From positions 1,674,001 through 1,738,000 of the forward strand of contig NC_014166.1 of assembly GCF_000092245.1 (NCBI RefSeq): 64,000 nucleotides of DNA, given 5' to 3'. The notes beneath the pieces were generated by a model. It was given only the letters and a program-made list of their open reading frames with translations, was not told the origin of the DNA and did not search any database. Made by a program: the position numbers and the translations under genes. Shown here piece by piece: positions 42,281 through 47,006 of the stretch. Origin of the DNA: Arcobacter nitrofigilis DSM 7299 (GTDB lineage: Bacteria; Campylobacterota; Campylobacteria; Campylobacterales; Arcobacteraceae). Each line of letters opens with the position of its first letter. Position 1 is the first letter of the stretch.

Positions 42281-42790
42281 ATGAACAAACTTTTGTCAAT
42301 TATTTTATTTACTTATTTACTTTTTATAACTGGTTGTAGCTCTTATTCTATAACAAAATACTTTGACAAAGATGAGTTTTTTCTTAATTCATTTCAATAT
42401 ACAAAAAAAGCAGATATTGTAGAAAATAATGAAGTTTTAGCTATATTTACTGCAACATATTTAAATAAAGTTGATGATAAATATGATGATAAGTATGAAA
42501 ACTTCATAGTTTCTGTTTATGTTGCAAATAATAAAAAAGCTGGGGTACCAATTATAACTTTAGATAAACAAAGTTATTCAAAAGATGAAATAAAGGAAAA
42601 AATAAGCTATAAAGAAAACTATATAAAAATACAAGAGATAAAAAAAGGTTCAAAAATGATTGAATCAATTCCTTTAAAAAACCCATGGGCAAAATATTAT
42701 TTAATCAAATTTGAGAAAAACAAAGAAATAGAAAATCCACTATTATCATATAAATTTACTGAGAAACAGAAGGCAGAGATAAGTTTTTAA
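42281..42790 (+). CDS. lipoprotein of unknown function
   Basis: 169 aa. Signal peptide with lipobox LFITGC (Cys19), then a soluble domain of alternating strands. GGAG lies upstream of the ATG. The 3' end overlaps the convergent transglycosylase-like gene by 35 bases. Not recognised. Confidence 0.75.
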   Translation: MNKLLSIILFTYLLFITGCSSYSITKYFDKDEFFLNSFQYTKKADIVENNEVLAIFTATYLNKVDDKYDDKYENFIVSVYVANNKKAGVPIITLDKQSYSKDEIKEKISYKENYIKIQEIKKGSKMIESIPLKNPWAKYYLIKFEKNKEIENPLLSYKFTEKQKAEISF

Positions 42791-44147
42791 AGAAATCTTC
42801 TAAACTTAGTTTTTTCTTATCAATAATCTTAGTATAAACAATATAGTTTACAATAAAATCTTTTGCTTTTTCATTATCCATAAGCTCTAAACTTAAATAC
42901 GGTTCATATAATTTATTAGCATGAAATAGTCCAAATTTTAATTTGTCATTTACATATTTTCGATTATTAATATACCCATAAAAACAAATCAAAGGATGAA
43001 AATAATCGATTTTTAAATCATCTAATATATAAGTGAAATAATCAATATTTATCTTTGGGTCAAGAAGTTCTTCTTTTTTAGTGGTTAAATTATATAAAAG
43101 CATTAGCTTTTCAGCTTTTTTTAGACTTACTTGCATCAAACCTAAGTTAAACTCAGGTGATACTTTGTTTTCATTAAAAGAGCTTAGAGTCTTTGCAAAT
43201 GAGTTTATTAGTATATTTTTATAATTAGAATATTTTTTTAAAAAGTCATAATCTAAAACTTTAAAATCCGCACCAAATATAATTTTTTCTTTCAATTGTT
43301 GTTTTATGTATAAAGTATAAATATTTAAATCATTTGATTCTTTTAGTGCATTTAAGCTCTTATCATCTTTATTTAATAAATAAAGCCAGAAGTTAGCTTT
43401 ATCTTTATCTTTTTGGCTAATAGCTTTTAATAGAGCATTCTCAAAGTATATATTTGTTTTAAGGTCATACTTTTTATTTAAAACTCTATTGAGTCCTAAT
43501 AAAAATGATACTTCATAATTATAATTTGTATCATTAAATTCTAAAAAAGTAGATTGTAAGAAGTTTAATTTGGGATTTGAAATAACTATTGATAAAAATT
43601 TTTCAAATTTTTTGTCATCTTTTATTTTTTCAATAGTATTAAAGGGAAGTTTATAATTTAACTTATCATATAAAAAGTTATCACTAGTATTTAAATATAC
43701 ATCATAAATTATATCTTTAGAAGAAGAAACAACTTTAGTAAAAGGAATAGGGGAGTTTATTATTTTTAACTCTTTTGCTAAAAGAGGATAAGTACCTTCT
43801 ATCTTTTGTATTATTGAATTTAATTCTAAGGCATTTAATTTAAGAGCTTTTTTTAGAGTAAGTCCAACAGCAATACAATCACTATATGAATCAACTAACT
43901 CTTTAGCAGTTGCATTTAGACATTGAGAGACAGCTAGAGTCTCATCAAAATCTATTTTTTTTGCATATTCATCAAAAATGATTTTATTTACATTTGAAAT
44001 ATGTTCTAGTATATTTATAGTATTTTCATATGATTTTTCACTATTTGATAGTTTGACATAATTGTCAAAATCACTTTTTAAAATATTCTCAGAGGAATAT
44101 ACATAAGAATTTATGAGAAGAAAGCACAAAACACTCTTAAATCTCAT
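42756..44147 (-). CDS. Slt-like lytic transglycosylase homologue lacking the catalytic glutamate
   Basis: 463 aa with signal peptide (residues 1-18), a long helical superhelix and a C-terminal SLT-like domain. The usual motif ARQESRFNPNAVSPAGARGLMQ aligns with FAKTLSSFNENKVSPEFN followed by LGLMQV. The Ser/Phe/SP/GLMQ frame is kept, but the catalytic Glu is Leu. As read it cannot cleave glycan by the known mechanism. It follows yggT and the gltX-like gene, a gene order I recall for active versions in other Campylobacterota. Confidence 0.75.
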   Translation of the reverse strand: MRFKSVLCFLLINSYVYSSENILKSDFDNYVKLSNSEKSYENTINILEHISNVNKIIFDEYAKKIDFDETLAVSQCLNATAKELVDSYSDCIAVGLTLKKALKLNALELNSIIQKIEGTYPLLAKELKIINSPIPFTKVVSSSKDIIYDVYLNTSDNFLYDKLNYKLPFNTIEKIKDDKKFEKFLSIVISNPKLNFLQSTFLEFNDTNYNYEVSFLLGLNRVLNKKYDLKTNIYFENALLKAISQKDKDKANFWLYLLNKDDKSLNALKESNDLNIYTLYIKQQLKEKIIFGADFKVLDYDFLKKYSNYKNILINSFAKTLSSFNENKVSPEFNLGLMQVSLKKAEKLMLLYNLTTKKEELLDPKINIDYFTYILDDLKIDYFHPLICFYGYINNRKYVNDKLKFGLFHANKLYEPYLSLELMDNEKAKDFIVNYIVYTKIIDKKKLSLEDFFKNLSLPSVSQ

Positions 44148-44156
44148 AAAAAGTCC

Positions 44157-44435
44157 TTACATTCCCATAAATAATCTTCCTAAAAATGTTTCTAGGAAAA
44201 TAAGTACTAAAATAAGAATCATTGGTGCTAAATCCATACCACCAAATACTGTAGGAATATACTTTCTAATTAAAGCATATGCAGGTTCTGTCAATCTATA
44301 TAGCATCTGAACTATTGGATTATAAGGATCTGGTCTAACCCAAGAAATAAGGGCTGAAATAATTACCACCCACTTATATAAAAATATAACACTCATTACA
44401 ACTGTAGCAATTGAGCCTATTAATGCATCTGTCAT
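44157..44435 (-). CDS. YggT-family membrane protein
   Basis: 92 aa with two hydrophobic segments around the family hallmark [22 protein letters not shown]. YggT proteins help osmotic adaptation and envelope or division functions; the precise role is unclear. It overlaps the gltX-like gene by 4 bases. Confidence 0.9.
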
Positions 44436-45721
44436 TTTACAATCTCTCCCATATAATTTTTAATTAGTGAATAAATAGCTGATAAATCTGGACCTGTATG
44501 TGTTCCTGTTAAAAGATATCTCAAGTTTCTTGATAAGGATTTATCATCTAATTTTGTATTTTCTATAATATATTTTTCTAGTTCATTAAAATCACCCATG
44601 AAAGGGGCAGAGGATAAACATTCTTTTAAATCAAAAAAATCATCTTCAAATCCTTTTAAAGAATCTTTTGAACTAAAAATCAAATCTATTTTAGCCTTAA
44701 TCTCATTTATTGTACTTGCTTCATCTAAATATAGTTTTCCAAGCTTTCCAATATCTGTATCAGCAAAACCTAATATTTTGGATAATCTCATTTCATCTAA
44801 AGTAGCAATATGTTTTTTATTAATAAGTTTTAATTTTTCTACATCAAACTCAACTGTATCATTTGAAACTTTTTCAATATCGAACCACTCAATAGCTTCT
44901 TCAATTGTAAAGATTTCACTTGGAGTTTTATTCCCTAATAATACTAAATAATTAGCAATTGCACTTGGTAAAAAGCCTTGTTCTATAAAGTATCTTACAC
45001 TATTTAGATCATTTTCTTTATTACTATTTACATTTAAAATACTAGAAGTATGTATATAATCAATTCTTTTAGTATAATTTAGCTGATTTCTTACATATAT
45101 TTGTTTTGCTGTATTTTCTATGTGTTTTTCTTCTCTTATTACAGTAGAGATATCATAAAGCATATCATCAACAGAACAAGCGAAGTTATAAGTTGGTGTT
45201 TTATCATGTTTTAAAATGATAAAAGAATCAACATAAGATGGTTGAAAAGAGAAATTTCCTTTAAGTAAATCAGTAAATTCAACAGTATTTTCTGGCTTTT
45301 TAATTCTAACTGTAAATGGTGCATTACAATTTAAAACTGTTTCATCAGATAAGGTTTCACAAAAACCATCATAACTAATTACTTTGCCTTCTTCTTTACA
45401 TTTTGCACTTATCTCTTCTAGTTTTTCATCTGAACAAAAACAAGAAAAAGCTTTTTTTGAACCCATTAACTGCATAGTTAATTTTTGATGATATTTTAAA
45501 TTTTCACTTTGATAAACAACAGCTTTATGTTCAATAGAAAAAAGAGTTAAAAGTTCAAGTATTACCTTATCATTTCCCTCAATGACTTTTTCTTTATCTA
45601 AGTCTTCTATTCTTATTAAGAGTTCTTCATTTAATTGTTTGGCAACAATGTAGTTAAATAAAGCAACTCTTAGATTTTCTAGGCTCATAACCTCTGCAAG
45701 ACTTTGTGAGAACCTTAACAA
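44432..45721 (-). CDS. glutamyl-tRNA synthetase paralogue with both catalytic signature motifs lost
   Basis: 429 aa, co-linear with GltX over its whole length: [50 protein letters not shown] and [13 protein letters not shown]. Where GltX has APSPTGxxHIGN, this protein has [12 protein letters not shown], and where it has KLSKR it reads NSNKEN; VIRGEDH is VIREEKH. Loss of HIGH and KMSKS argues that it cannot activate glutamate. A true gltX must lie elsewhere in the genome. It could still bind tRNA or ATP weakly and act as a regulator, or be decaying; the open frame is intact. Confidence 0.85.
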
Positions 45722-45722
45722 A

Positions 45723-47006
45723 TTATTTCCTTACTATTGAAAATGATAAATTTTCTATCTCTGCATGAGATTTAATATAACTATTAATTTGTTTTAAACT
45801 TAATTTTTCTATTTTTTCTAACTCTTTAGTTGAATAATCTTGATTTAAGCCTCTATAGTAAAGAGTAAAAGCTCGATTTAATCTTTGGCTTAGAGTTTCT
45901 ACTCTTAAAGGCTCACTTCCTGTTAAGAAGTTTTTAGCAGCTTCTAATTCATCTTTAGTGATACCTTTATTTACAAATTCATTTACAATTTTAACTACTA
46001 AATCTTTTGCTTCATTTGCTGTTTCATTTTTTGTTTGTAAATAACCTGTAAAGTATGTATGAGATTTATTTATAGAAATTTGACCATAAGCACTATAGGC
46101 TAGACCTCTTTTTACTCTTATCTCTTCCATTAATCTAGAACCAAAACCACTTCCACCTAAAATAAAAGAAGCTACTTTTGCAATATAATTATTTTCATCA
46201 TTTACTTTTACATTAAAAGGACTTCCAAAATAGATATAGGCTTGTTCAGTCTCTTTTATTTGCTCTTTTACAATTTTTTTGTCAGAAGCTTCAATATCTA
46301 TCATTTTTGATTCTTTTCCATGCTTTAAAGAGCTTAAAATAGGTTCTAAATTAGTTTTTAACTCCTCTAAAGAGATATCTCCACCTGCAACAATAATTAA
46401 ATTCTCTAAAATCAAATTTGAATTAATAAAATTTTTAACATCTTCAAGTGAAATTTTTGAAATAGACTCTACTGTTCCATTTGATGGATTTTCTAAAGAA
46501 GTACCATTGAAAAGTATTTTATTTAATTCATTTCTCGCTACATAATCATAATCATTCTCTTTTCTTTTTAAAGAACCTGTTAAAATTGTTTTTATTTTTT
46601 CTACTGTTTCATCTTTATAATTAGGTGATTTTAATAATTCACTTAATAATTCTAAACCATTTTTATAAACATCTTTAATAGATGATAATTCAATAACAAA
46701 TGTTTCAAATCCGTGAGAAACATTTAATGAAATTGCTAAGTTCTCTAATTTTTGTGCAAACTTTGTACTTCCATCTTTTAAAGTACCTTCATTTAATAAT
46801 CTTGCAGATAAACCTGCTAAACCATTTTTATCATTATCTTTTATTGAACCACTATTTTTGAAAACTAATTGTAAATTAAAAGTTGGTAAAGAGTGTTGTT
46901 CTTCAAAAATAACTGGTATATCTGTATTTCCTATTTTAATATGCTCTATTTGGGCACCCATTAAAAATCCTTGTATTATTAATAATATTAATGCTATTTT
47001 TTTCAT
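45723..47006 (-). CDS. M16-family peptidase-like protein without the zinc motif
   Basis: 427 aa with signal peptide (residues 1-18) and the two-domain M16B fold: [20 protein letters not shown] is the C-terminal hallmark with the R...Y pair. The HxxEH site should lie at [14 protein letters not shown], where H, E and H are Gly, Ala and Arg. It resembles the non-catalytic partner of two-subunit M16 proteases. It ends 1 base before the gltX-like start, same strand. Confidence 0.8.

Follow-up and report, generated by a model that had tools for sequence, protein, structure and literature searches.

An intact gltX2 orthologue without catalytic motifs in Arcobacter nitrofigilis and other GlnRS-bearing Campylobacterales

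The gltX2 locus and its product

The stretch of the Arcobacter nitrofigilis DSM 7299 genome (one contig of 3,192,235 bp) analysed here, referred to as the window, spans 64,000 nucleotides and carries on its reverse strand an open reading frame of 429 codons with a TTG start (44432–45721), referred to as gltX2, the intactness of which had already been claimed in a sequence-only reading and was confirmed. A Shine–Dalgarno-like AAGGAA (45724–45733, reverse strand) precedes the TTG codon from within the 3′ end of the upstream gene, i.e., that of an M16-family protease (45723–47006, reverse strand; family read from the sequence rather than via a profile search). The GTAAGGAAATAnnTTG context at this start is preserved in most of the inspected orthologues with eroded catalytic motifs (referred to as dead orthologues). 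Downstream, yggT (44157–44435, reverse strand) shows an ATGA overlap with the gltX2 stop codon and has its Shine–Dalgarno sequence (GGAGA) inside the gltX2 C-terminus. It is followed by an slt-like gene (42756–44147, reverse strand), the name of which we take from the presumed counterpart at the H. pylori/C. jejuni locus. The 3′ end of this gene overlaps by 35 bases (42756–42790) with that of a small gene on the forward strand (42281–42790).

The M16 protease and slt-like genes are syntenic in relatives, and the order M16 protease–gltX2–yggT–slt is common to the dead and intact relatives examined; H. pylori HP0643 and its neighbours presumably have the same gene order. The location of gltX2 next to yggT and slt is conserved in Campylobacterales, with yggT (searched for by motif) undetected at some loci of families f4, f6, and f7, and with the gltX2–yggT adjacency also kept in families f16 and f20. 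The product matched the bacterial GluRS profile TIGR00464 (gltX_bact) over its full length (NCBIfam profile search; residues 2–421, 321.6 bits against a cut-off of 289.95) as well as PF00749 (171.6 bits), and its closest solved structures are GluRS enzymes. The TIGR00464 match and the conserved neighbours argue for orthology to the Campylobacterales GltX2, i.e., the tRNA-Gln-charging GluRS, and the gene is assigned accordingly. In Campylobacterales, GltX2 is the maker of Glu-tRNA-Gln for GatCAB (reviewed in PMC9976931).

The same early reading had described the protein as a GltX relative without HIGH and KMSKS motifs, and the profile matches together with the destroyed motifs bear this out. 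The class I motif 1 region (45674–45718, reverse strand, residues 2–16) is degenerate, with the H and G of the aligned RFAPSPTGYLHIGN replaced by S13 and E15, respectively, and with the HIGN-type motif at its end reading SLEN. The VIRGEDH equivalent (45122–45142, reverse strand, residues 194–200) reads VIREEKH. As for the third motif, its loss, first read as NSNKEN, stands, whereas its interpretation as a substitution does not, since the KMSKR loop (NVNSNKEN; 45008–45031, reverse strand, approximately residues 231–238) is shortened by a deletion of four residues. The active site of gltX2 consequently contains neither the HxGx signature of class I synthetases nor a KMSKS loop. The zinc-site residues CxCx20Yx3C (C94, C96, Y117, and C121; 45359–45442, reverse strand; motif defined in PMC4381286) are retained, being present in 92–95% of 60 non-redundant dead orthologues. 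A confident GluRS fold including the anticodon domain was predicted (AlphaFold2; pLDDT 91.9, pTM 0.87), which superposed on the T. thermophilus GluRS 1j09 with a TM of 0.87, and in which pLDDT fell below 50 only at residues 233–237, i.e., in the shortened KMSKR loop.

The genome carries three class Ic synthetases, i.e., the gltX2 product, GltX1, and GlnRS. The other gltX sought in the genome thus proved to be a normal GltX1 (C1:146598+) with intact motifs (RFAPSPTGYLHIGG, VIRGDDH, and KKLSKR), while GlnRS (C1:2215114+; 768 residues) has intact PHIGH and MSKR motifs and a GatB/YqeY-like tail. Since catalysis by the gltX2 product is inferred to be abolished, GlnRS would be the working enzyme. 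The A. nitrofigilis GltX2 cannot be expected to form Glu-tRNA-Gln, and its tRNA-Gln activity, initially suspected to be lost or moved, appears to have moved to GlnRS elsewhere in the genome. Dasgupta & Basu (2014; PMC3927822) noted the co-occurrence of GluRS2 with GlnRS in some epsilonproteobacteria, including A. nitrofigilis, and took GlnRS to be the possibly non-functional partner. Our sequence data argue against this guess, and point to GlnRS as the one at work.

Motif loss and GlnRS across Campylobacterales

All 104 Arcobacteraceae genomes matched the query, nearly all with the GltX2 orthologue itself. Among 100 orthologues, motifs were eroded in 57 of the 60 from GlnRS-bearing genomes and intact in 39 of the 40 from genomes scored as lacking GlnRS (Fisher P of 4.9e-23, a value that overstates independence as the genomes are related). 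The three intact cases with GlnRS were MAGs (G233, G236, and G240), and the lone dead case without GlnRS (G265) was a 74%-complete assembly. A tree computed with the motif columns left out showed at least seven changes of motif state inside the Arcobacteraceae, and all four informative independent pairs pointed in the same direction (sign test p of 0.125, not significant alone). The genome G234, scored as lacking GlnRS, was rejected as a counter-example: its GlnRS-like stretch (G234:C171:7500-10500; 44% identity to Arcobacter GlnRS) contains 15 in-frame stops (four TAG and 11 TAA), and the contig looks like a foreign one from an organism reading TAA/TAG as a residue.

Among the 57 dead Arcobacteraceae orthologues, the H of HIGH survives in six, the G of VIRGEDH in none, and the KMSKR lysines in six and four, respectively. 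Erosion stages vary, with G219 retaining HIGN while having lost the KMSKR loop, and G273 reading HVAN and KKISQ, and loop deletions are of unequal length even inside one genus. These unequal stages and loop lengths point to many separate losses, and the conversion of GltX2 to a retained pseudo-synthetase is best described as a repeated one. Dead GltX2 may have some residual activity, particularly where erosion is incomplete, as in G219.

The congener G224, whose protein is 86% identical, displays the same kind of motif loss. Sequencing or assembly error and strain-specific decay were ruled out by the same state occurring in 57 Arcobacteraceae genomes, several of which are single-contig. Sister species with intact motifs, regarded beforehand as a sign of local decay or read errors, do exist in the form of the relatives without GlnRS; nevertheless, local decay or read error does not follow, because motif loss goes together with GlnRS in six families, and dead gltX2 is under purifying selection (see below).

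In the order as a whole, a profile search found GlnRS in 107 of 299 genomes, of which about 86 keep GltX2, 15 have lost it, and 6 are ambiguous (counts read by hand from result tables). From these, 30 GlnRS-bearing genomes were chosen in five other families, 28 of which were readable (L287 and L297, for which an incorrect ORF was extracted, were left out), and motifs were eroded in 27 of the 28. G130 carries GlnRS alongside an intact or near-intact GltX2. In the open-licence literature, we found no description of an inactive GluRS2, either for Arcobacter or for the rest of the order.

Gene arrangement varies among these families. At eight f20 loci (L280, L286, L288–L290, L294, L299, and L301), the frames of glnS, dead gltX2, and yggT lie end to end in the same orientation, placing the GlnRS gene directly upstream of the gltX2 whose job GlnRS would have taken over, while in several f16 genomes (e.g., L273, L292, and L293) glnS adjoins gltX2 mostly divergently. 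Five genomes of f17 and f13 (G017, G035, G060, G073, and G296) yielded only one GltX, together with GatB, and searches found neither GlnRS nor GltX2 in them; their GltX1 may have turned non-discriminating, or the genes may be missing from the assemblies. Finally, a GlnRS sequence with ca. 50% identity and with many in-frame stops in its N-terminal half (L307; G260:C290:7000-10000) is possibly a decaying glnS, and an intact GltX2 was not seen in this 84%-complete assembly.

Selection on dead orthologues

Purifying selection on dead gltX2 was apparent from omega (dN/dS) values of 0.05–0.17 in nearly all dead–dead pairs. Omega amounted to 0.051–0.141 in 13 comparisons between dead Arcobacteraceae orthologues, to 0.14 between A. 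nitrofigilis and G224 (LRT 79.9), and to 0.146–0.174 in three close dead pairs of f20; one f16 pair gave 0.375, and many distant pairs were dS-saturated. GltX1 yielded 0.022–0.045 in the same genomes where measured, and simulated neutral pairs yielded 0.71–1.16. Pooled omega was 0.088 for dead versus 0.045 for intact GltX2, with an LRT of 1233 for the dead set against an omega of 1. Most of the relaxation fell on residues 185–300 (0.105 in dead vs. 0.024 in intact GltX2), the part containing the VIRGEDH and KMSKR sites, with little of it in the anticodon domain (0.096 vs. 0.073). A pseudogene was ruled out given the intact frame, an omega far from 1, and the simulated neutral control. The earlier view that the protein is kept though non-catalytic is thus supported by both motif loss and purifying selection.

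It could be argued that gltX2 is a recently redundant gene in slow decay, i.e., a pseudogene in waiting, as motifs erode stepwise in different genomes, omega in dead copies is roughly double the intact value, and 15 of the 107 GlnRS-bearing genomes lack gltX2. However, omega lies far below 1 although both members of each pair are already dead, none of the 57 dead Arcobacteraceae copies has a disrupted frame, and dead clades cover whole genera with saturated dS. We consider such decay very improbable.

The 60 non-redundant dead orthologues, which come from six families, share 119 columns in which one residue is held in at least 80% of rows (some in >95%), including R3, R18, D40, R139, D185, and D186. 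This conservation also bears on the idea that the protein is unneeded and that its frame stays open only through translational coupling to yggT. The ATGA overlap and the Shine–Dalgarno sequence within the C-terminal codons, found in dead and intact orthologues alike, fit such coupling, as does the gltX2–yggT adjacency retained in f16 and f20. Nevertheless, coupling is served by any open frame and does not require the amino-acid sequence, whereas omega is approximately 0.09 and was unchanged (0.086, LRT 1193) when the last 25 codons, containing the yggT ribosome-binding site, were omitted. Coupling as the sole reason is therefore improbable as well, albeit marginally less so than decay. The residues Q79, K100, Y180, and N264 at first appeared to be derived but were rejected as dead-specific novelties since they also occur in intact GltX2 of genus g2; nothing thus indicates that residues were acquired for a novel function. 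The net charge of residues 185–300 falls from –1 to –7 in dead GltX2, which argues against ordinary acceptor-stem binding.

Possible retained function and comparison with known systems

Orthology, synteny, motif loss, its association with GlnRS, the recurrence of this loss across families, gene retention, and dN/dS are all read directly from the genomes, and we consider it very probable that GltX2 lost catalysis after takeover by GlnRS and was retained as a folded pseudo-synthetase under purifying selection. The ancestral GltX2 would have made Glu-tRNA-Gln for GatCAB; upon arrival of GlnRS, tRNA-Gln charging would have shifted to the latter, and GltX2 would have lost ATP and amino-acid activation. 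Loss of the motifs with the frame kept suggests that aminoacylation was dropped and something else was retained. The non-catalytic GltX2 would then be kept for aminoacylation-independent work that it already performed, and we lean towards such a second function, hidden where tRNA-Gln is still charged by GltX2 and exposed by the gain of GlnRS. In what is the least certain step, this job would most likely consist of binding tRNA-Gln and/or GatCAB via the acceptor/zinc and anticodon domains, which is our best guess, and might amount to a GatCAB scaffold for tRNA-Asn or to the sequestering or clearing of stray Glu-tRNA-Gln. Any single molecular job for dead GltX2 is nevertheless rather unlikely when taken by itself.

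GatB was found in 293 of the 299 genomes and AsnRS in none of the 299; tRNA-Asn consequently still depends on GatCAB. A role of dead GltX2 as partner or scaffold of GatCAB, specifically for Asn-tRNA-Asn synthesis, would agree with this distribution and with the H. pylori GluRS2–GatCAB transamidosome (Huot et al. 2011, cited in PMC4027206). Moreover, a role on behalf of GatCAB has been suggested for the zinc domain of GluRS (PMC4381286), the motif of which dead GltX2 retains. Against this stands the presence of GatB in 14 of the 15 GlnRS-bearing genomes without GltX2, which indicates that the second function is dispensable and that GatCAB does not strictly depend on GltX2, such strict dependence being unsupported. 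This partner role is tentatively put forward.

Somewhat more doubtful is a quality-control role, in which dead GltX2 would bind or hydrolyse misacylated Glu-tRNA-Gln from GluRS1 or GlnRS. H. pylori GluRS2 reportedly binds tRNA-Gln and GatCAB, and its hydrolysis of excess Glu-tRNA-Gln was reported by Huot et al. 2011. Of the residues that we take to line the glutamate pocket after T. thermophilus GluRS (GltX1 numbering), R5 is present in 57 of the 57 dead orthologues, S9 in 54, E41 in 41, Y184 in 40, and R202 in 43, so that part of the pocket persists while several of its residues are not strictly kept. The reduced tRNA-facing positive charge of residues 185–300 also speaks against this role, and GatCAB would convert Glu-tRNA-Gln anyway.

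Whichever job applies, conversion of GltX2 to a retained pseudo-synthetase would, if true, amount to a separation-of-function experiment that nature has carried out in several families, and would provide a conserved residue footprint for a GltX2 function that is masked in Campylobacter and Helicobacter, where GltX2 must charge tRNA-Gln. The annotation of gltX2 as 'glutamate--tRNA ligase' is probably wrong in most GlnRS-bearing Campylobacterales. Non-catalytic synthetase paralogues are already known, but here one synthetase appears to have been independently inactivated on many occasions and nonetheless retained.

The closest known system is GluRS2 of H. pylori and other Campylobacterales, which shares the profile, length, yggT and slt neighbours, HIGN-type ancestor, and CxCx20Yx3C motif with the A. 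nitrofigilis protein, in which, by contrast, HIGH, VIRGEDH, and KMSKR are destroyed and GlnRS is present. A retained second GluRS is likewise found in Thermotoga maritima, where an 'inactive GluRS2' charges neither tRNA-Glu nor tRNA-Gln (PMC3927822). It arose independently via gene duplication in hyperthermophiles, whereas in Campylobacterales a formerly active tRNA-Gln enzyme would have lost its motifs repeatedly after arrival of GlnRS. The HisRS paralogue HisZ, a regulatory subunit of ATP phosphoribosyltransferase, is similarly an adenylation-dead synthetase paralogue that has been retained in a regulatory or structural capacity, although it belongs to class II and has another partner, while GltX2 belongs to class I; we know of no HisZ-like partner enzyme for GltX2. 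Finally, GluQRS/YadB shares the GluRS-like fold and zinc motif and has a function other than charging the tRNA 3′ end. The gltX2 product scored only 126.3 bits against the GluQRS profile TIGR03838 (cut-off 276.7) and counts 429 residues versus the ca. 300 expected. Moreover, GluQRS keeps ATP-dependent glutamate activation and is devoid of an anticodon domain, and the gltX2 product appears to be its opposite in both respects.
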